IMG/VR virus record: IMGVR_UViG_3300031227_000482
Location: 1 to 22,162 of that record
Strand: one strand, 5' to 3'
Length of the DNA: 22,162 nt
Source of the DNA: a virus
Made by a program: the position numbers and the translations under genes. Below are positions 3,142 through 21,390 of this stretch, in pieces. The notes under the pieces were generated by a model. That model did not search any database. It saw nothing but the letters and a program-made list of their open reading frames with translations, and was not told the DNA's origin. Position 1 is the first letter of the stretch. Each line of letters begins with the position of its first letter.

Positions 3142-5295
3142 ATGAGTAATATAAGTGACATAGAACATATGGGTAGTGTAGAGGAGGATTTATTCGGGGA
3201 TATAGAGGAGGTGTATGTAGGCCCGACTGAGGGTACTGAGGGTACTGAGGGTACTGCGAGCATCTTCGAAGAAGAGGCGAGCGTTGGTCATAGTAATAGT
3301 GTAAATGATGATAAAACAGTGAAAGAGGACAAAAAGAGTGAAGATGAAAAAAAGCGGGGATTTGGAACCGAAAAGTGTTGTTCGACTGCTCACGAATTTT
3401 CCAGTGATTCTGAGCTTAAAGAGGATACGGAAACCCCTATAAACATTGGCGATTCTCCAAGTTCTTTAAAAGCTGATATATATACGCCCGAAATAAGTAC
3501 ATCTGAAAAAAATTCTGGAGGTAAAATGGAACCGATGTCGCCCCCCATTGAGGAAATAAAAGAAATACATAAGGAATCGCCTCCTAAGGAATTGCAGGAA
3601 GTACCTAAAAAGCAATCTAAGCAATCTAAGCAATCTAAGCAATCTAAGCAATCTAAGCAATCTAAACCTAGGACTACTATATACAAGGGAGGTCGTCCTA
3701 AGGGTTCGAAGAATAAGGAATACAAGAATCAGAAGGTATTTGCGCCTCAGCCGGGACCGCAGGAAGAGTTTTTATCTAGTGTGGCTGATTGCGTTATATA
3801 CGGAGGTGCTAGGGGAGGTGGTAAAAGTTTTGCGTTATTTCTTGAGAGCCTTCGCCACATAGGTGTTCCGGGTTTTAATGCAGTATTTTTAAGAACGTCC
3901 CAGAGAGAGATAATAGGTGCTGGGCAGTTATGGGACACAAGTTACGAGTTATATAGTTCTATAAAAGGTTCAAAGCCTGTTAAGAGTTCTAGGAAGTGGG
4001 AATTTCCTTCTGGTGCTAAGATTGAGTTTGCAGGATTAGATAAGGAATCTGCTCAGCAAAGGTTTAGGGGGGCGAGTTTGAACTTGATATTATTTGATGA
4101 GGTACAGTTATTGGATGAGAGTTCGTTTTGGTTTCTACTGACCTGTAATCGTAGTACAACAGGAATTTCGCCATATATTCGTTGTTCTTGTAATCCTGAC
4201 CCTGATAGTTTTGTAGCTAGGCTTATAAGTTGGTGGATAGGGCCAGAGGGATATCCTATAAAGGCTCGTTCAGGGGTTGTGCGTTATTTTATGAGGGATG
4301 GTGATATGATTGTATGGGCTGATACAAAGAAAGAGTTATTGGCAATGGATACGGATTATGAGAAAGAGCTAAAGAGGATGAAAGGTGATGGTGGAGCTAA
4401 TTTAAAGGAAAGGCTTAAGATACTGAAGAAGTCGTATTTGAATCGTTATAAGAGTTTGACGTTTATAGGTAGCCTTGTAACTGACAACAAGATATTAATG
4501 GAAGCTGATGAAACGTATATATCTTCATTGGCGATTCAGGATAGGGTTTCGAAAGAGCGTGATTTAATGGGTAATTGGCTTATAAGGGGTGAGAAGGGTG
4601 ATATATTTGATTCTAAGGATTTCAAGGTAATGAAGCATATACCTGAGTTAACTGATTATAAGGGTGGTGTTGTTGAGTGTAGGATGTGGGATTTCTCATA
4701 TGTAGTTGATTACACGGCATCGGTTAAAATGCGTAAATACCCAAATGACCCCGTGTATTATGTGGTAGATGTCACACAATTCCGTTTAGGTCCTGCTGAA
4801 ACAGAGGATTTATTTTTAGGTACGAGTATGAAGGACAAGAAGTTAGCGGAGCAATTTGGTATAAATTATATGGTGCGTTGGGAGGAAGAGGGTGCATCGG
4901 CCGCAAAGAAGGTAACTGCTGACAGGATTCAGTTATTGGCAGGTTTTAATTGTGCGGGCGTTAGGACTCAGCAGAGGTCTAAGCGTGCTAGGGCGTTACC
5001 GTTTGCTGTACAGGTAGGTGGTGGCAATGTAGCGTTATTGGAGGCTGAGTGGAATGATAAGTTTAAAGCTCAGCATCATGCATTTACTGGTGAGAAGAGT
5101 ACAAAGGACAGGAAGGATGATATGGTTGATTGTAGTTCTTATGCGTTTGCTCAATTAACTTCTGGCTATATATATCCTACATTAGATTTAGTGGAAAAGG
5201 AGAAAAGTGGAGAGGTAGACATAATGGAAAAAATGTTAAAAGATCAAGAAGAGCTAGAAAATGATTTTTTAATGTGTAACGATTTGGATGATTAG
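3142..5295 (+). CDS. terL: terminase large subunit with a long N-terminal extension, 717 aa
   Basis: This is the ATPase-nuclease motor that packages DNA into proheads. The ATPase domain has Walker A GGARGGGKS (221-229), Walker B LILFDE (315-320) and a following coupling segment ending CSCNPDPD. The C-terminal nuclease domain has candidate metal-binding Asp residues D517 (MWDFSY), D543 (VVDVTQ) and D659/D660/D663 (KDDMVD). Large terminases usually place Walker A within the first 30-80 residues. Here about 190 extra residues precede it: acidic EGT repeats (about 30-38), a Ser/Glu/Lys-rich tract, six KQS repeats (157-174) and an AT-hook-like GGRPKGSKNK (183-192). The start has a purine-rich AGGGGGG site at 3130-3136. 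The core call is firm; the extension's role is unknown. Confidence 0.95.
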   Translation: MSNISDIEHMGSVEEDLFGDIEEVYVGPTEGTEGTEGTASIFEEEASVGHSNSVNDDKTVKEDKKSEDEKKRGFGTEKCCSTAHEFSSDSELKEDTETPINIGDSPSSLKADIYTPEISTSEKNSGGKMEPMSPPIEEIKEIHKESPPKELQEVPKKQSKQSKQSKQSKQSKQSKPRTTIYKGGRPKGSKNKEYKNQKVFAPQPGPQEEFLSSVADCVIYGGARGGGKSFALFLESLRHIGVPGFNAVFLRTSQREIIGAGQLWDTSYELYSSIKGSKPVKSSRKWEFPSGAKIEFAGLDKESAQQRFRGASLNLILFDEVQLLDESSFWFLLTCNRSTTGISPYIRCSCNPDPDSFVARLISWWIGPEGYPIKARSGVVRYFMRDGDMIVWADTKKELLAMDTDYEKELKRMKGDGGANLKERLKILKKSYLNRYKSLTFIGSLVTDNKILMEADETYISSLAIQDRVSKERDLMGNWLIRGEKGDIFDSKDFKVMKHIPELTDYKGGVVECRMWDFSYVVDYTASVKMRKYPNDPVYYVVDVTQFRLGPAETEDLFLGTSMKDKKLAEQFGINYMVRWEEEGASAAKKVTADRIQLLAGFNCAGVRTQQRSKRARALPFAVQVGGGNVALLEAEWNDKFKAQHHAFTGEKSTKDRKDDMVDCSSYAFAQLTSGYIYPTLDLVEKEKSGEVDIMEKMLKDQEELENDFLMCNDLDD
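3229..3255 (+). repeat. (GAGGGTACT)x3 in-frame repeat in terL
   Basis: Three perfect 9-bp units encode EGT three times, immediately after a GCCCGAC motif (3221-3227). They lie in the non-conserved N-terminal extension. Confidence 0.9.
3610..3663 (+). repeat. (AAGCAATCT)x6 in-frame repeat in terL
   Basis: Six perfect 9-bp units encode six KQS repeats (residues 157-174), forming a basic, flexible tract just before the AT-hook-like motif. Perfect identity of all units suggests recent slippage. Confidence 0.95.
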
Positions 5296-5322
5296 CTTAA
5301 AATTATAGGTGAGCTTATATAA

Positions 5323-5346
5323 ATTCTAAGAATTCTAAGTTATAAG
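5323..5346 (+). repeat. ATTCTAAG repeats before the portal gene
   Basis: ATTCTAAG occurs at 5323-5330 and 5332-5339. The second copy extends to ATTCTAAGTTATAA (5332-5345), whose exact reverse complement lies at 7876-7889 before the capsid gene. CTTATA (5314-5319) and TATAAG (5341-5346) flank the pair. A shared regulatory site is possible. Confidence 0.5.
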
Positions 5347-5379
5347 TCCTTAATGCTTAATATTAAATAGGAGAATCCT

Positions 5380-6819
5380 GTGGCAATAACAGATTTCATT
5401 AACAAGGCAAAAAACATATTCAGTGGTAATGGCAGTGTAAATGTAAATACAACTAATGATAGTGCGATATTTCAACAGATGGTACATTTACTAACTGGTG
5501 ATAATTGCAAGGGTAAAACATATACATATGACGAGATAATGATGGAGTATAAATCGTGGGTATATGCCTGTTCGAATATTAATGCTGCCGGTGTAGCATC
5601 TACGCCATTAAGGTTATATGCTACGACTAGTTATGGTCAGAGTAATAAGTATTTACATAATCATAGGGTATTGAGTAGTAAGGAAGTGAAAGAGTTATCT
5701 AATAGGGCTTCATATAAGGCATTGAGTAAGATAACTCCATCTGTAGAGGTTGTAGAGGTTGTAGATCATCCTTTACTTGATTTATTGCGTAAGTTTAATG
5801 ATGACCGTAATTATTATGAATCTATAGAGGGTACATCTATTAGTTTAGATATGATAGGTAATGCTTATTGGTATATGGATTTTGCTGGAATGTCAACGCC
5901 TCAGGAACTATATGTAATGATGCCACAGCATATGACGATAGTTGCTGGTAAGAGGAGGTTAATTAAGGGGTATATTTACAAAAAGAGTGGTGTAAATGGT
6001 GAAAAGCCAGTAGGTGTTAAGTTTAAGCCTTCAGAGATAATTCATTTTAAAACTGCATCTGTTACATCTGATTATTATGGTTTAGGACCTGCTATGGCAG
6101 CTGCGATGGCGATTGAGCGTAATGAGTTAATTGATATATCTGAGAATTCTGCATTAAAGAATAAGGCTCGTCCAGATGCGATTGTGCAGTATAAGGGTGG
6201 AAAGTTAGATCCTACTAGTAAGCGAGATGTTGAGAAGATGTGGAATAAGGCAGTAGGTGGTCCTCAAAAGAATGGTAAGATTAAGGTTATGGATGAGGAT
6301 TTTGATATTAAGGCTATGCCCGGCTGGACTCCTGAGGAAATGAAATATATGGAAGGTAGGATATGGACATTAAAAGAGATAGCGGCTATATATGGTGTTC
6401 CTTATTCGATGTTAGATTCGAGTGATACGAAGAAGGCAACGAGTGAATCTGCTAAGTTATGGCATACTCAGAATGCTATTGTTCCAAGGACTAAGAGGTT
6501 GGAAGAGAAGTTAAACGAGAAATTAGTTCCGTTATATGATGACAGGTTATTCTTAATGTTTGATGATCCAACGCCTGAGAATTTAGAGCAGAAAACAACG
6601 ATAGATGACAAGAATATAACGAATGGTTCTATAACGATAAATGAGGTTAGGCGTTCTAACGGGCTTGTTCCTTATGAGGATGAGAAGTTTGACTCCCCAT
6701 TTGCTAGTGGAGGAGAGGTTCCAGAGCAATTAGAGGACTTTCAGGGTGATAATAAACCAGTAGAGAGTGGGGATAGTGAGGGTGGTGAGGATAGTAAGGA
6801 GGATAATAATGAAGAATAA
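5380..6819 (+). CDS. HK97-family portal protein, 479 aa
   Basis: The portal forms the ring at the capsid vertex through which DNA enters and to which the tail attaches. Family features include an N-terminal EYKSWVYACSNINAAGVASTPLRLY segment (56-80), a DMIGNAYWYMD strand pair (157-167), IIHFKTASVTSDYYGLGP (220-237) and a clip/stem region with LKEIAAIYGVPYSML (331-345). Near 417-436 it has a NGSITINEVRRSNGLVPYE segment typical of this family. The C-terminus is acidic and low-complexity. Translation starts at GTG, supported by a TAGGAGA SD (about 5369-5375). It contains a short 9-bp VEV-coding duplication (5743-5765). Its end overlaps the protease start by 11 bases, indicating translational coupling. 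Confidence 0.93.
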   Translation: MAITDFINKAKNIFSGNGSVNVNTTNDSAIFQQMVHLLTGDNCKGKTYTYDEIMMEYKSWVYACSNINAAGVASTPLRLYATTSYGQSNKYLHNHRVLSSKEVKELSNRASYKALSKITPSVEVVEVVDHPLLDLLRKFNDDRNYYESIEGTSISLDMIGNAYWYMDFAGMSTPQELYVMMPQHMTIVAGKRRLIKGYIYKKSGVNGEKPVGVKFKPSEIIHFKTASVTSDYYGLGPAMAAAMAIERNELIDISENSALKNKARPDAIVQYKGGKLDPTSKRDVEKMWNKAVGGPQKNGKIKVMDEDFDIKAMPGWTPEEMKYMEGRIWTLKEIAAIYGVPYSMLDSSDTKKATSESAKLWHTQNAIVPRTKRLEEKLNEKLVPLYDDRLFLMFDDPTPENLEQKTTIDDKNITNGSITINEVRRSNGLVPYEDEKFDSPFASGGEVPEQLEDFQGDNKPVESGDSEGGEDSKEDNNEE

Positions 6820-7822
6820 GTATGCGTTTAAGAAAGTTTATGACCATATGCAGGATGCAGAGAAGAAGGAAGTTGATGCTATTCTAAAAGAAGAAGGTGT
6901 TGATTTAGATTCTATAACTGTTGAGAGAAAGGCATTTGGTGAAGAGATTAAAGAAGAGGATATGGATTTTGAGAAGAGAACTGCTGTAGTTAGGGTTTCT
7001 ACTCGAGATGTTGATTCTGTTGGTGATGTAGTTGTTCCTTCTGGTGTTATATTAACTGAGTTTAAGAAAGAGGGAATGCCATTCTTTTGGCAACATGACA
7101 TAAGAGAAATGCCTATGGGTTCTGATGAATGGATAAAAACTGATGCATATGGTGTAAAAGCTAAATCTGTTTTTGCTGATACTGGAGAGGGTACGCCACA
7201 GGACATTCTATGGAAATTAGTTAAGCAGGGTCACCAGAGGCAGAGTTCTATAGGGTTTGCTTTAATACAGGCTGTTTACAAAGGTACTAAGGAATTTAGG
7301 GCAGTAGATAAACAATTAGCTGCTGTATGGCCTGAATACAAGAAGAATAGAAAATTCGTTAATAGGATAATTACTAAGGCTCTATTACTTGAGCATAGTC
7401 TAGTAGGAATAGGGTGTAATTCCGCTACAACAGTTGAATCAGTATCTAAACAGTGGAAAGATGCAGGTGCTGACGATGAGATTCTAAAGAAAGCTGGATT
7501 ATTCATTGAGGATGCTAATGAAGTTAAGGATGATATTGAGGATAAGGTTGAAGAAGTAGGGGAGATAGAAGATGGAGGAGATATTGATAAAGATGCTAAT
7601 GTCGTTGAACCAAAGGATAGTGTTGACGAAGAACCAGTTGAGAAAGAAGTTATTGAGGATGAAGTCAAAGGAGTCAAAGAAATTATAGAGCCTATTCCTA
7701 TTAAAAAGTTTGCTAAGGTAATTAAGAAGCCTACATATGTCAAGGTAATCAAAGAGCCTGACATTGATTTTAAAGAGATTGTAGATAGGGAAATAAGAAA
7801 AGCTTTAGGAAAAGTTGTTTAA
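6809..7822 (+). CDS. HK97-type prohead maturation protease (peptidase S78/U35-like) with acidic tail, 337 aa
   Basis: This serine protease cleaves capsid precursor domains during prohead maturation. Visible family features are a VRVSTRDVDSVGDVVVPSG strand-loop (61-79), the QHD motif with putative catalytic His96, the QSSIGF motif with putative catalytic Ser147, and LLLEHSLVGIGCNSAT (192-207) at the usual end of the fold. Residues from about 235 to the end are very Glu/Asp/Lys-rich, resembling a scaffold-like extension. I chose ATG 6809 because an AAGGAGG SD lies just before it. An in-frame start at 6767 would extend into portal-coding DNA without an SD. It overlaps the portal stop by 11 bases and precedes the capsid genes, as expected. 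Confidence 0.88.
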   Translation: MKNKYAFKKVYDHMQDAEKKEVDAILKEEGVDLDSITVERKAFGEEIKEEDMDFEKRTAVVRVSTRDVDSVGDVVVPSGVILTEFKKEGMPFFWQHDIREMPMGSDEWIKTDAYGVKAKSVFADTGEGTPQDILWKLVKQGHQRQSSIGFALIQAVYKGTKEFRAVDKQLAAVWPEYKKNRKFVNRIITKALLLEHSLVGIGCNSATTVESVSKQWKDAGADDEILKKAGLFIEDANEVKDDIEDKVEEVGEIEDGGDIDKDANVVEPKDSVDEEPVEKEVIEDEVKGVKEIIEPIPIKKFAKVIKKPTYVKVIKEPDIDFKEIVDREIRKALGKVV

Positions 7823-7975: not shown

Positions 7976-9247
7976 ATGATAATTAAGTTAAAAAATAATT
8001 GGGTTGATTCAGAAGATAACATCCATAAGTCGGGAACTATTTTAGATATAGATTCTGATACCGCTAAAGAGCTTATTGACGCTGAGAAAGCTATTGAGTC
8101 CGATGGCGTTGTAAAGGAAGTTAAAGCTGAAGATATGTCAGTTGCTGTAAAAGAAGCTGTTGCTGAAGCTATGAAGAGCCTTAAGGTTGATGAAGTAAAG
8201 GAAGAAGTTAAAATTGATGACATCGAAACTATCGAAGTTGTTAAAGATGCTCCTATATGGAAAGATACGGGCGAATTCTTACAGGCTGTTGTAAAAGCTG
8301 GTAAAGGAAATAGGGCTGATGAAAGGCTTTATAAGTCTACTGGTCAGAATGAAGATGGTGCTGACGCAGATGGTGGATTCCTTGTTGAACATAGAATTGG
8401 CAATGAAATCTATAAACTCGCAGCTCAGGAATCAGTACTTTTCCCTAAATGTGATGTAAAAGAGGTCGCTCCAAATTCTAACGGCTTAAAAATCAATATG
8501 GTAAATGAAACTACACGTTCTGCTACTACATTGTTTGGTGGAGTTCGTTGTTATTCTCCTGCTGAAGGTGTTGCTAAAACCCCATTCAAGCAGGCCTATT
8601 CTCAGGTTGACATTGACCTTGGAAAACTCTTCGCTGTAAATTATTGCACAGATGAGTTGCTTCAGGACAGAACAGCACTTCGTAGCTTTATTGCTGACGA
8701 TGTAGCTAAAAGCCTTGCTTGGAATATCGACAATGATATCTTGCACGGAACTACTAATACTGCTATGCAAGAGATTGAAAATAACGCCGCTACTGTTCGG
8801 GTTACTGTTGCTGGAGCAAATCCAACAGCTGCTGAGCTTACTACTATGTATGTTTCTATGGCACCGGGTTGTATTGCAAGAGCTGAATGGTATATGAGTT
8901 TATCTCAATACTCAGCTATTATGCAGTTAGAAGATACCTCTGGTCGTAAACTTATACAGCCTAATTTCGAAATTAGTCCTTATGGAACTCTTTTCGGTAA
9001 GAAGGTTAATTGTATTGAGCAGGCAGATGTTGATGCCAACGATACGAGCATAATGTTTCTTGACTTGTCGAGTTACCTTGTTATTAAGCGTGGCGGAATT
9101 CAAGAAGCGCAAAGTATGCATGTCAAGTTCCTGGAGGACGAGATAGCCTTCAGATTCGGTTTAAGGATGGGTGGATCACCTAAACTTATAAGTACTGTTA
9201 CGCTTCCTGACGGAACGATAATCAGTCCTTTCGTTACAAGAGATTAA
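7976..9247 (+). CDS. major capsid protein 1, HK97 fold, 423 aa
   Basis: This forms the icosahedral shell. From about residue 116 the sequence has the HK97-type layout: a STGQNEDGADADGGFLV start after which the N-arm begins, a spine-helix/P-domain region (residues 210-260, with DLGKLFAVNYCTDELLQD), and a C-terminal KFLEDEIAFRFGLRMGGSP-TLPDGTIISPFV ending common in phage capsids. Residues 1-115 are charged and partly helical, fitting a delta-like scaffold domain removed by the neighbouring protease; the cleavage point is inferred. A strong terminator follows the gene (9270-9301). The next gene encodes a clear paralogue. Its SD-bearing leader and terminator suit a highly expressed gene. Confidence 0.9.
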   Translation: MIIKLKNNWVDSEDNIHKSGTILDIDSDTAKELIDAEKAIESDGVVKEVKAEDMSVAVKEAVAEAMKSLKVDEVKEEVKIDDIETIEVVKDAPIWKDTGEFLQAVVKAGKGNRADERLYKSTGQNEDGADADGGFLVEHRIGNEIYKLAAQESVLFPKCDVKEVAPNSNGLKINMVNETTRSATTLFGGVRCYSPAEGVAKTPFKQAYSQVDIDLGKLFAVNYCTDELLQDRTALRSFIADDVAKSLAWNIDNDILHGTTNTAMQEIENNAATVRVTVAGANPTAAELTTMYVSMAPGCIARAEWYMSLSQYSAIMQLEDTSGRKLIQPNFEISPYGTLFGKKVNCIEQADVDANDTSIMFLDLSSYLVIKRGGIQEAQSMHVKFLEDEIAFRFGLRMGGSPKLISTVTLPDGTIISPFVTRD

Positions 9248-9269
9248 GAATAGTCATTGAATAAAACTA

Positions 9270-9301
9270 GGGGCTGAGTTGTTACAGCTCAGCCCCTTTT
9301 T
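9270..9301 (+). terminator. rho-independent terminator between the two capsid genes
   Basis: GGGGCTGAG (9270-9278) pairs with CTCAGCCCC (9288-9296). The stem can extend inward through a G-U pair, and it is followed at once by TTTTT. This is the best terminator in the window. It would reduce read-through from capsid gene 1 into capsid gene 2. Confidence 0.92.
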
Positions 9302-9369
9302 ATATTATTTTAAAAATTAAATATTCATTACGCCCTAATACAATGGGTTAAATACAAAAGGAGATGAAG

Positions 9370-10851
9370 ATGAAGATGAATAAAAGAGTAAAATTAGGTG
9401 AGTCCATTCAGGAACTCATTAAGGGTAATAAGCCTAACAAAGCTATTATCAAATCAACAGGACAAAACGAAGCTACCGCAGCTGATGGTGGCAACCTTGT
9501 TCAAAACAATCTTATAGCTACAATACTTTCTCCGGACTTTATGGCTGGATCCATATATGAGAAGTGTACTATTTTTAATGTTGGTGATGACAATGCCGGT
9601 GTAAAAATACCTATTTCCAATGAGCCTACTAGAAATGCTGCTGGAATACTTGGCGGCGTATTAGCGTATGTAGTTGGTGAGGGTGTTGCTAAAACTCCTT
9701 CTGACGCCGCATTTAGTATATTAGACCTTGGCTTTAATAAGATAGCTGTTGTAATTACTTTAACTGATGAAATAAAAAGTGACTCAGAACTATTAGGTCA
9801 GTTTGTTCAGAAAGCTGCTTCGGATGCTATTAAGTGGATTGTTGATACGAATATTGTATATGGTGGCGGAGCGTTGAATGCTATAGCGAATCATCCTGCT
9901 ACTGGTTTTTCTGATGTTGCGGGTGTTATAACTGCTGCTGAGCTAAAAGATATTTATGACCTTTACTACCAGAACAAGAATGGTTGTTGGGTAGTTTCTC
10001 AAGATATGTGGATAGATATTACTAATCTTTGGGATACGGCTACTCAGACTCCTCAAATTCCTTTAACTTGGGATATGGACGGAACGCCTATTTTATGGGG
10101 TTATCCTGTAATTGTTTCTGATGTTATGAGAGATACGAGTTTAGTATTAGGCGATTTCAGTCAGTATGTTATTGCTCAGAAAGAAATGACACAGGCTGTA
10201 AATGAGTCCTTGAAGTTTGTAGAAGATGAAAGTTATTTGAGATTCGTTCTTAGAATAAACGGATCTTCAATGTGGGCTGGACCAATGACCTTAACTGACG
10301 GTTCTGTAGTTCATCCATTTGTTATGAAAACTGATGATGAGCAAAGTACTTCTTCTGAAGGGTTTAGTTCTTCTTCGAGTTCTATTGATTCAAGTAGTAC
10401 CTCAAGTACAAGTCCGGGTTCAACATCGAGTACAAGTTCTTCGAGTTCTTCTAGTTCTATTGATAGCTCAAGTTCTGAGTCAACAGATGAAAGCAATAGT
10501 TCTGGTAGTTCTGACAGTAGTTCAACCAATAGTTCTCAAAGTTCTTCAAGTTCTTCGAGTTCATTTGACTCGAGTTCTTCTGAGTCTGGCGGTGACTGTA
10601 ATGCAAGTTATGTTGCTTCTACGTTTGCTACCGCAGATATTAATGGAACATATGCTATAGATGGACAATACAATGGCAAAGCTAAGTATTACAATGGAAC
10701 ATATTGGTTATTCTTCGCAGATAGTAACCCTGATTATTGGGCGATATCTGGAGATGCCGGCGATCCTCAGAACCAATGGGTAACATCTAAGGATACGGCT
10801 GGCGATTGTCCTGATGGAACCTATGTTGGCGAAGCTGGAACATTGGTATAA
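9370..10851 (+). CDS. second HK97-fold capsid protein with Ser-rich linker and C-terminal module, 493 aa
   Basis: Residues 28-320 are paralogous to the upstream capsid protein. Shared landmarks are KSTGQNE near the start, GEGVAKTP, an LDLGF/IDLGK strand, and a matching ending (SLKFVEDESYLRFVLRINGSS, then LTDGSVVHPFV). It lacks the roughly 95-residue N-terminal delta-like domain of capsid protein 1. Residues 325-406 are a Ser-dominated linker. Residues 407-493 form a small Gly/Tyr/Trp-rich module (NGTYAIDGQYNGKAKYY, YWLFFA, YWAISGD, CPDGTYVG), likely beta-rich and surface-displayed. Its exact function is unknown; binding to a cell-surface or mucus polymer is inference. ATG 9370 is six bases after the GGAG SD (9360-9363); 9364 and 9376 are alternatives. 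It could be a minor or alternative shell subunit. Confidence 0.85.
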   Translation: MKMNKRVKLGESIQELIKGNKPNKAIIKSTGQNEATAADGGNLVQNNLIATILSPDFMAGSIYEKCTIFNVGDDNAGVKIPISNEPTRNAAGILGGVLAYVVGEGVAKTPSDAAFSILDLGFNKIAVVITLTDEIKSDSELLGQFVQKAASDAIKWIVDTNIVYGGGALNAIANHPATGFSDVAGVITAAELKDIYDLYYQNKNGCWVVSQDMWIDITNLWDTATQTPQIPLTWDMDGTPILWGYPVIVSDVMRDTSLVLGDFSQYVIAQKEMTQAVNESLKFVEDESYLRFVLRINGSSMWAGPMTLTDGSVVHPFVMKTDDEQSTSSEGFSSSSSSIDSSSTSSTSPGSTSSTSSSSSSSSIDSSSSESTDESNSSGSSDSSSTNSSQSSSSSSSSFDSSSSESGGDCNASYVASTFATADINGTYAIDGQYNGKAKYYNGTYWLFFADSNPDYWAISGDAGDPQNQWVTSKDTAGDCPDGTYVGEAGTLV

Positions 10852-10901: not shown

Positions 10902-11771
10902 ATGGCTCTGACCACTGTAAAGTTATATAATGATTACACTGGCGAAAAGGGAACTACTGAGGAGAATACTCAGTTAGATTCTCTTATTACTAATGTATCT
11001 CAATTAGTCGAACAGAAATGTGGGCGTACATTTGGTACAGCTACTTACAAGTATTGGCTTAATGGTGATGGAAGCAACATTCTTTTTCTTCCACAGTATC
11101 CAATTACAAGAGTAAAGCGTGTATCTAATTGCACTCATAATGTAATGCAGGTAGAAAACTCAGGAAGCGATACGGCTACTGTTTCTTCAAATGTTTCTTC
11201 AATAACTTTAAATTCATTAAGTGCTATTGGCGATGAAGTTGATACTTATTTATATTATACTGACTATGCTAATGTCTACAGTATGACGGCAGCAATAAAT
11301 GTAGTTGATAATTGGACAGCGACTCAAGTAGATACTCCTAGTAACGAAACCTCCTTAACGCAGTTTATAAAACCGATATATGCTGAGGATGCTGTAGGCG
11401 AAAAGGTACATATTGATTTGGCTTCTAGTAATTCATCCTTTGGTATTGCTTATGAATCTAGGAATAGCTTGGAAATGTTTCAGGGTGTATTTAACTGTGG
11501 AACAAACAATATTTATGTGGAATGGGTTGCCGGGTATACCCTTCCTTTAGATGATGATAACCATAACTCCTTAACTGTAGATGGCGATTTACCAGCAGGG
11601 TTGACCTTGACGGTTAATAAGATTATAAAGGATTACTTAGATGACCTTGAATTAGATGGTAATTTAAAGTCTGAGAAATTAGCGGATCATGGATATACGC
11701 ACGATGGCGTTAATTCTATTATCGAGCGGTACTGGCGTGACCTTTCTGAATATAGTTATGTTAATCCATAG
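10902..11771 (+). CDS. head-tail connector protein (gp6/gp15-like), 289 aa
   Basis: The product is likely the first ring below the portal. The N-terminus (residues 2-45) matches the connector pattern: LTTVKLYNDYTGEKGTTEEN then DSLITNVSQLVEQKCGRTFG, an alpha-helical DNA-packaging adaptor fold. A YWLNGDGSNILFLPQYPITRVKRV beta segment follows. The usual C-terminal GYTLPLDDD..LPAGLTLTVNKIIKDYLDDL helix is near 215-250. The middle (about 80-200) is longer than in compact homologues, which run to about 100-200 residues, and may be an inserted beta domain. The SD GGAGG lies 6 bases before the ATG. The order portal, protease, capsid, connector supports the call. Confidence 0.8.
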   Translation: MALTTVKLYNDYTGEKGTTEENTQLDSLITNVSQLVEQKCGRTFGTATYKYWLNGDGSNILFLPQYPITRVKRVSNCTHNVMQVENSGSDTATVSSNVSSITLNSLSAIGDEVDTYLYYTDYANVYSMTAAINVVDNWTATQVDTPSNETSLTQFIKPIYAEDAVGEKVHIDLASSNSSFGIAYESRNSLEMFQGVFNCGTNNIYVEWVAGYTLPLDDDNHNSLTVDGDLPAGLTLTVNKIIKDYLDDLELDGNLKSEKLADHGYTHDGVNSIIERYWRDLSEYSYVNP

Positions 11772-19278: not shown

Positions 19279-21390
19279 ATGGCCGTAACATTCAGATCAA
19301 ATGCCTTAACGCAGAGTTCAATTAATGTTCTTACTATTAATTGTACATTACCTGCTGGACTTGCCGTTGATGATTTAATGATTCTTCATATTTGCTCTAA
19401 TTCAGGTGGTAATGTAGAGCCAGACCCTCTAACTGGCTGGAATAGAATATTTAGAGAAGGCTTTGGTGGAAGTCAAGTCGTATTAATAAAAGTAACTGTT
19501 CAGGCAGATATTGATGCTGGATTTATTACTGTTGACCAAGATGGGCAGAACGGACCTATAATGGCTAACCTTACTGCTTTTAATGGAGTTGATACGACTG
19601 ATCCTATTTCTGAAATTCAAAATACTTCCTATGCAGGTCCGCCTTTTATTATTCCATCCATTACTCCTGACACAAACAATTCGTTAATGGTGTTAATGGC
19701 TAATAGACCTAGTAATAGTAGTTCTTTTAGTGGATATAGTATAGCTGTTTCAAATCCATCTTGGACTGAGCATTATGATGTTAAGGCAACGGCTGAATGG
19801 GCTGGTAGTCAAGCAATGGCAACTGGATCAAGAGCCTCAAGTGTATCAACTGGATTAGGTAATATAGATTCAACGGGTTATGGACATGGCATTATGTTTT
19901 CTATAAATCCTGACGGTTTTGATTATGATAGTTCAAGTTCTTCATCTTCTTCGTTATCTTCTGAGTCAAGCCTATCTTCTTCCTCTTCTTCTCAATCAGA
20001 TGGATATTACTGTTGCACGGATCCTGAATGTTTCTCAACAGATGCTACTTGTTCTCATTTTTCTGCTTGGACAATTAATGGTGCGACGCAAGATACAACT
20101 GACAATTGTTCCTTACACGGAAGTACATCTTATTTCTTACCGGACAATGGACAGGTAAGATTATATAAAGATGCAGGTAAAACATCCTTAGTTGCTACTG
20201 GTCAGGCTGCTGGCGCAGGAACGATTACGTTAACAGAGAGGAATGATTCAGGTATAACTGGTTCTGTTGTATGGGATGGTTCTTCAAGTATAACTAATTT
20301 TACATTAGATTGCTTACACAGTTCTTCAAGTTCTTCTGATTTTTCTTCTTCAAGTACGTCTGAAAGCTCTGAGTCTGAAGGTAATACATCAAGCTTTAGT
20401 AGTTCTTCGAGTTCAACTGAGGGCTGTTATTGCGACACGTGGGAATGCACAGGTGATTGCACTCATTTTTCTGCTTGGGATTTTTTAGGAACGAACCTTA
20501 ATAATACTAATGATTGTAAGTTGTATATATTATTCGATTCATTTGTTGCTAATACACAGCAAGTACAGGTTTACTCAGATGCTGCATATACTAGCTTAGT
20601 TGCAATTGGTCAAGCTGGGTATGTTACAATAGAATTACTTGAGCAGAATAGTTCAGGAATAACAGGTGTAGTAACTTGGGATTTAGTAGTTGTATCATCT
20701 CCTTCGTCTGCTATTGTAGAATGTGATCTATATGCATTAAGTTCTTCAACTAGTTCCTCTTCTTCATATGGCGAAAGTTCATCTAGTAGTTCTGAACAAC
20801 TTAGTGATTCTTCTGAGGGATTTTCATCAAGTTCATCAAGTTCTATTTCAAGCGCATCTACTAATTCAAGTTCTAGCTCAGAAGGAAATAGTTCATCTTC
20901 GAGTTCGACATCGAGTTCTTCTTCTAGTTCTTCGAGTCAATCTAATTCAAGTAATAGTAGTTCTTCTTCTGAAGGTAATAGTTCTTCTTCGAGCACTTCA
21001 TCTTCTTCTGAATCTCAAGAGTTTACGGCTGATGGTTGGACTTGGGGATATGCCACTCCTACCGGAACGGATGCAGTAAAATGGACGAACTGGAAATATA
21101 AAGAATCAGCAGTAGAGGCTAGAAACACAGGCGATTATGGAAATCTTGAGGTTAAGAATCATGAGTCATTTGTATCAGACGTAAAGAATTCATTAACAAC
21201 TCAGGAAAAATTAATAACAATATCTTATGACGACTATGGAACCGGCTTTGGTAGCGGGGATGTTTATTATAGGTCAAGTAATACAATATTTAGTCAGGAT
21301 AGTAATGAAGTAGCTGGACCTTCTTGGGTTTCTTATAGTGAAGCTATTCAAATATACAATAGATATATACAAATTATGGTGGTTATATAA
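19279..21390 (+). CDS. modular Ser-linked tail adhesin/fibre protein, 703 aa
   Basis: The product has a bead-on-string design. Residues 1-217: a beta-rich N-terminal domain (LAVDDLMILHICS..TGWNRIFREG..., then AFNGVDTTDPIS), a layout seen in phage tail and surface adhesins. Residues 242-345 and 383-482: two copies of a Cys-containing module, each with a CSHFSAW or CTHFSAW motif, a V(R/Q)(L/V)Y...AG/A..TSLVA strand pair and an NSSGITG or NDSGITG near the end. Residues 579-703: an aromatic C-terminal domain (GWTWGYATPTG...). Ser-rich linkers occupy 218-240, 346-382 and 487-578. Its stop overlaps the next start (TAATG). Carbohydrate or cell-surface binding is likely but not shown. Confidence 0.75.
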   Translation: MAVTFRSNALTQSSINVLTINCTLPAGLAVDDLMILHICSNSGGNVEPDPLTGWNRIFREGFGGSQVVLIKVTVQADIDAGFITVDQDGQNGPIMANLTAFNGVDTTDPISEIQNTSYAGPPFIIPSITPDTNNSLMVLMANRPSNSSSFSGYSIAVSNPSWTEHYDVKATAEWAGSQAMATGSRASSVSTGLGNIDSTGYGHGIMFSINPDGFDYDSSSSSSSSLSSESSLSSSSSSQSDGYYCCTDPECFSTDATCSHFSAWTINGATQDTTDNCSLHGSTSYFLPDNGQVRLYKDAGKTSLVATGQAAGAGTITLTERNDSGITGSVVWDGSSSITNFTLDCLHSSSSSSDFSSSSTSESSESEGNTSSFSSSSSSTEGCYCDTWECTGDCTHFSAWDFLGTNLNNTNDCKLYILFDSFVANTQQVQVYSDAAYTSLVAIGQAGYVTIELLEQNSSGITGVVTWDLVVVSSPSSAIVECDLYALSSSTSSSSSYGESSSSSSEQLSDSSEGFSSSSSSSISSASTNSSSSSEGNSSSSSSTSSSSSSSSSQSNSSNSSSSSEGNSSSSSTSSSSESQEFTADGWTWGYATPTGTDAVKWTNWKYKESAVEARNTGDYGNLEVKNHESFVSDVKNSLTTQEKLITISYDDYGTGFGSGDVYYRSSNTIFSQDSNEVAGPSWVSYSEAIQIYNRYIQIMVVI

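Follow-up and report, generated by a model that had tools for sequence, protein, structure and literature searches.

Why would one phage carry two adjacent major capsid genes, and what might the second subunit do that the first does not? The window, meaning the whole 22,162-nucleotide stretch analyzed here (positions 1 to 22,162 of IMG/VR viral record IMGVR_UViG_3300031227_000482), raises this question within an otherwise normal order of head genes: terminase (3142–5295), portal protein, S78 prohead protease, first capsid protein (CP1), second capsid protein (CP2), and head-tail adaptor. The portal gene (5380–6819; PF04860, E 1.7e-55), the protease gene (6767–7822; PF04586, E 6.1e-8; phrog_80 head maturation protease, 3.1e-11) and the adaptor gene, which is the first after CP2 (10902–11771; phrog_442, E 1.9e-14), lie on the plus strand, as do CP1, the CP2 core and all of the domains and hairpins of this locus located below. 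The true start of the protease probably lies inside its listed ORF.

CP1 (7976–9247, 423 aa) matched the HK97-fold major capsid profile PF05065 with an E value of 1.8e-31, and the CP2 ORF (9364–10851, 495 aa) comprises a capsid core (9364–10341; PF05065, E 7.4e-22), a Ser linker, and a module. In both proteins the profile matches were above the cut-off and spanned the whole capsid domain, and the two sequences aligned with 34% identity over 328 aa (E 1e-44). The listed ATG of CP2 directly adjoins an AGGAG motif; judging from the sequence, the start may instead be the ATG at 9370 or 9376. AlphaFold models were built for CP1 from 23 relatives (mean pLDDT 70.8) and for CP2 from 17 (58.4, with the core better than this overall mean), and Foldseek and VIA-align matched both predicted folds to HK97, GTA, and other capsids. 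Among solved structures, the best Foldseek matches of the CP1 model were GTA/HK97 capsids (best E 2.4e-15); the CP2 model matched solved capsids in the PDB (E 5.4e-11) and aligned in VIA-align over 257 residues (Z 16.5, rmsd 6.5). CP1 and CP2 are thus true paralogues, both of the HK97 fold. An earlier, sequence-only reading had proposed tandem capsid paralogues, an idea that a non-HK97 prediction for the second protein was to have refuted; structure prediction returned the HK97 fold for each, and the pair proved conserved in relatives (below). As an observation the earlier reading is confirmed; its interpretation, a possibly mixed shell with the second subunit placing a binding module on the surface, is supported in part. 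The shared landmarks listed in that reading were correct overall, except that CP1 reads AEGVAKTP and not GEGVAKTP.

HK97-fold encapsulins matched the CP2 model nearly as well as phage capsids did, which would fit a CP2 that acts outside the shell as a capsid-derived neck, collar, decoration, or encapsulin-like product. However, CP2 sits between CP1 and the head-tail adaptor and is co-inherited with CP1, and no cargo gene was recognized within the 22-kb window; we consider such a role highly improbable.

An assembly or annotation artefact can be ruled out, since the same arrangement occurs on 22 contigs from several metagenomes, and production of CP2 by frameshifting can be ruled out because the two are separate ORFs with their own starts and only 34% identity. 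The pair differs in this respect from T7/T3 gp10A/gp10B and Listeria PSA/A118, which share with CP2 a capsid variant bearing a C-terminal extension but use frameshifting within a single gene to make the two forms; the two ORFs found here do not correspond to a single gene read with frameshift or slippage.

The 22 contigs with a CP1-CP2 pair (window included), which represent a group of uncultured tailed phages, were recovered by IMG/VR scans of the kind the earlier reading had suggested, and the gene order was identical in all of them. In a tree of 75 capsids, the CP2s formed one clade (100/97) and the CP1s another (89/70; 99/95 in a smaller tree), with 30 single-capsid relatives as a third group (100/100). 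CP1 and CP2 distance matrices were correlated (r 0.88; 0 of 2000 permutations as high), with some local reshuffling, e.g., in L016 and L009. Together, the separate clades and the matched distances indicate one old duplication retained by descent. With CP1 as the query, every high-scoring CP1 followed by at least 1 kb of sequence has a CP2, and about 60 lower-scoring single-capsid relatives, some with up to 5 kb of following sequence, have none. On average, the capsid proteins of the paired phages differ at ∼65% of positions. One contig, L024, carries a GIY-YIG endonuclease gene (5028–5828, E 1.1e-7) directly after CP1, in the place held by CP2 in relatives; the contig ends 1 kb beyond this gene with no CP2 within the visible sequence, and the gene is possibly a homing insertion between two capsid genes. 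Bradyrhizobium sp. Leo170 (L046/L039) was considered as a second type of pair and rejected, as its 602-aa ORF looks like a fusion of a portal protein and a capsid fragment; it is counted among the single-capsid relatives. The cultured phages nearest to CP1 and CP2, Streptomyces phage Dagobah and Pseudomonas phage Alize, are <30% identical and have one annotated MCP each. CP2 had no match among plasmids, and a scan of genome contigs returned distant capsids only. In the literature covered, which takes in few subscription journals, we found nothing matching on tandem or paralogous phage capsid genes.

The two paralogues differ first at their N-termini. Ahead of the shared KSTGQ block, the window's CP1 has 119 residues and its CP2 has 29, in agreement with the earlier claim that only the first protein carries an N-terminal region, and the same holds across the group: CP1s have a median of 115.5 residues (93–136), single-capsid relatives 118 (95–170), and CP2s 29 (11–51). 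The CP1 extension (7976–8332, ∼119 residues ahead of the shared core) was modeled as a small beta-containing domain (residues 2–41) followed by a low-confidence charged stretch (43–93). Given its position and the neighboring S78 protease, its assignment as a delta/scaffold domain is plausible by analogy: it has a delta-like length, and the protease is its likely processor. CP2 has no such region.

We propose a two-subunit capsid in which CP2 would be a minor vertex subunit with its Ser tail displayed outside, a reading we hold to be reasonably probable. CP1 would be the major subunit, its N-terminal region driving procapsid assembly and presumably being cut off by the adjacent S78 protease. 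CP2, lacking that region, should not build a shell by itself, so that it should need CP1-built shells and enter them as a minor component. Two systems suggest where. T4 gp24, a duplicate of gp23, forms 11 vertices (PMC10580926); gp23/gp24, like CP1/CP2, are diverged paralogues from a duplicated HK97-fold capsid gene, both kept in one phage, and in our phages the two are also co-inherited (22 pairs, r 0.88). SaPIbov5 Ccm, a capsid-protein homologue found in pentamers only (PMC8569155), resembles CP2 in having a shorter N-terminal region than its full-length counterpart, the phage phi12 CP, and co-assembles with that full subunit. Unlike CP2, Ccm keeps a shorter, 87-residue delta region; it is also satellite-encoded and redirects another phage's shell, whereas CP1 and CP2 belong to one phage, with CP2 adjoining that phage's own portal, protease, CP1, and adaptor genes. 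CP2 would thus most likely form pentamers at the eleven non-portal vertices, a position proven for T4 gp24 and assigned to CP2 purely by analogy; by the same analogy, each head would present as many as 55 Ser-tethered tails. Random mixing of CP2 into hexamers, or its placement in a portal-proximal ring, would be alternatives.

At its C-terminus, CP2 carries the Ser linker and module that the sequence-only reading had described for the second protein alone. The poly-Ser linker (about 10342–10596) is predicted to be disordered (residues 328–421, pLDDT about 22–34), and the VIA alignment of CP2 stops at HK97 gp5 residue 381–382, which places the beginning of the linker at the C-terminus of the capsid fold. 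The module that follows (84 residues, family A7; 10597–10848) was aligned with six other CP2 modules. A Ser run was present in 21 of the 21 CP2s with a readable C-terminus and was long in nearly all, the tails ranging from five Ser (L125) to >200 residues, module included. Eleven CP2s bear the module (window, L005, L012, L014, L016, L017, L036, L051, L052, L053, and L058), and the 10 other readable CP2s end in Ser only. Across the group, the tail thus often ends in an exchangeable module.

Searches with the module gave no convincing family match among Pfam, PHROG, and PDB sequences, and it was absent from 50,697 phage records. The same module was found in L050 (4413–5261) and L054 (4407–5384), behind a ∼110-residue N-domain and a Ser linker, in proteins that have no PHROG match and sit between the portal and scaffold-like genes; L050 has a capsid of another family (phrog_283). 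These are putative head-display proteins, and their independent head-block context best supports a candidate virion-surface role for the module, which is also borne by a Ser-linked NHL-repeat-like protein in L059. In CP2, the flexible poly-Ser tether extends the capsid end and would often hold the exchangeable module outside the head, where its probable role would be to anchor the virion to some surface or glycan. Display on T4 goes through a separate protein, Hoc, and gp24, unlike CP2, is not known to carry a poly-Ser display tail.

Displayed capsid extensions have precedent in T7, whose 10B C-terminal extensions lie on the outer surface, and in T3, whose extension is Ig-like (PMC8811829, PMC5009743). 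In contrast, the CP2 module is not a recognized Ig-like domain, and the comparison with Ig-like display made in the earlier reading stands only in the sense of a displayed extra domain, with no Ig match among Pfam, PHROG, and PDB sequences. A resemblance in architecture, with no sequence relation claimed, is offered by the secreted carbohydrases of Saccharophagus degradans, which carry carbohydrate-binding modules on polyserine linkers (PMC2386152): both kinds of module are small and linked through long Ser runs.

The tails also bear on whether CP2 needs a vertex at all. CP2 could co-assemble with CP1, either scattered at random through hexamers as well as pentamers or mixed in a controlled way, and act simply as a carrier of tail and module. 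The common fold and 34% identity of CP1 and CP2 are compatible with this, T7/T3 10B is a minor subunit with the 10A fold, and the Ser tail occurs in every readable CP2. Against it, the paralogues have been separate since before the group radiated and no loss of CP2 was seen in the CP1 clade, which suggests a dedicated structural position for CP2, and L125 has kept a CP2 with a five-Ser tail, so that CP2 is retained even where display is minimal. We judge simple co-assembly rather unlikely. The nearly tailless L125 also fits a CP2 that mainly sets head size or shape (e.g., isometric vs. prolate), with the Ser tail secondary, as does the ability of SaPIbov5 Ccm pentamers to turn prolate shells isometric (PMC8569155). 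This reading is improbable in view of the Ser run in every readable CP2, long in nearly all, and the recurrence of the module on head-block proteins of other phages. A minor subunit at the vertices, with its tail outside, remains the arrangement we prefer.

Two RNA hairpins lie between the capsid genes. The earlier reading placed a terminator there, and a terminator-like hairpin of 13 pairs followed by a T run indeed lies directly after CP1 (9269–9297). A strong hairpin occupies this position in nearly all relatives, with differing stem sequences, but its T tract is weak in L005, L009, L012, and L014, where it may stabilize mRNA rather than terminate transcription; partial termination and mRNA stabilization are both possible. 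A small hairpin with an A-rich loop lies upstream of the CP2 ribosome-binding site (9332–9348), with similar elements in relatives (L005, L009, L016, L017, L125, and others). Counted by script, such hairpins preceded 17 of 22 CP2 genes; among the remaining genes at these loci the count was 11 of 178 (Fisher p 2e-13, uncorrected for kinship), and CP1 generally has none comparable ahead of it. The stems vary yet stay complementary (GCCC/GGGT, CGCC/GGCG, AGCC/GGCT, AACC/GGTT, GCTC/GAGC, and ACTC/GAGT), and the CP2-leader hairpin is possibly a regulatory RNA element. Between them, the two hairpins would probably set the CP1:CP2 ratio.

Specialization of a capsid paralogue for the vertex and display on a capsid extension each have precedents; here the two would be joined in one gene, in a conserved combination that persists across phages despite an average divergence of about 65% of positions between their capsid proteins. 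More tentatively, and as less likely than not, we suggest a widespread, undescribed system in which a scaffold-less vertex CP2 serves as a display platform, carries an exchangeable Ser-tethered adhesion module, and has its dose set by the CP2-leader hairpin, possibly bound by a phage protein. CP1/CP2 would be a natural, modular surface-display capsid, in which the placement of a scaffold-less subunit within an HK97 shell becomes testable. The conserved pairs also suggest that two major-capsid genes side by side in a metagenomic phage are not necessarily an annotation error.

Several other features of these phages were observed. Upstream of the terminase genes, the window encodes a sigma-70-like phage factor (1196–1975; Sigma70_r2, E 4.1e-7), and L003 likewise has one there (1574–2242; Sigma70_r4, E 1.7e-5). 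The terminase large subunit ORF begins with an N-terminal extension of ∼200 residues with QSK repeats (3142–3720), followed by the ATPase domain. Poly-Ser tethers recur in the virion genes of these phages: a 703-aa tail-region protein (19279–21390) has several Ser linkers that separate Cys-rich modules, and an adaptor-like protein of L003 (10026–10406) has a Ser C-terminal end.
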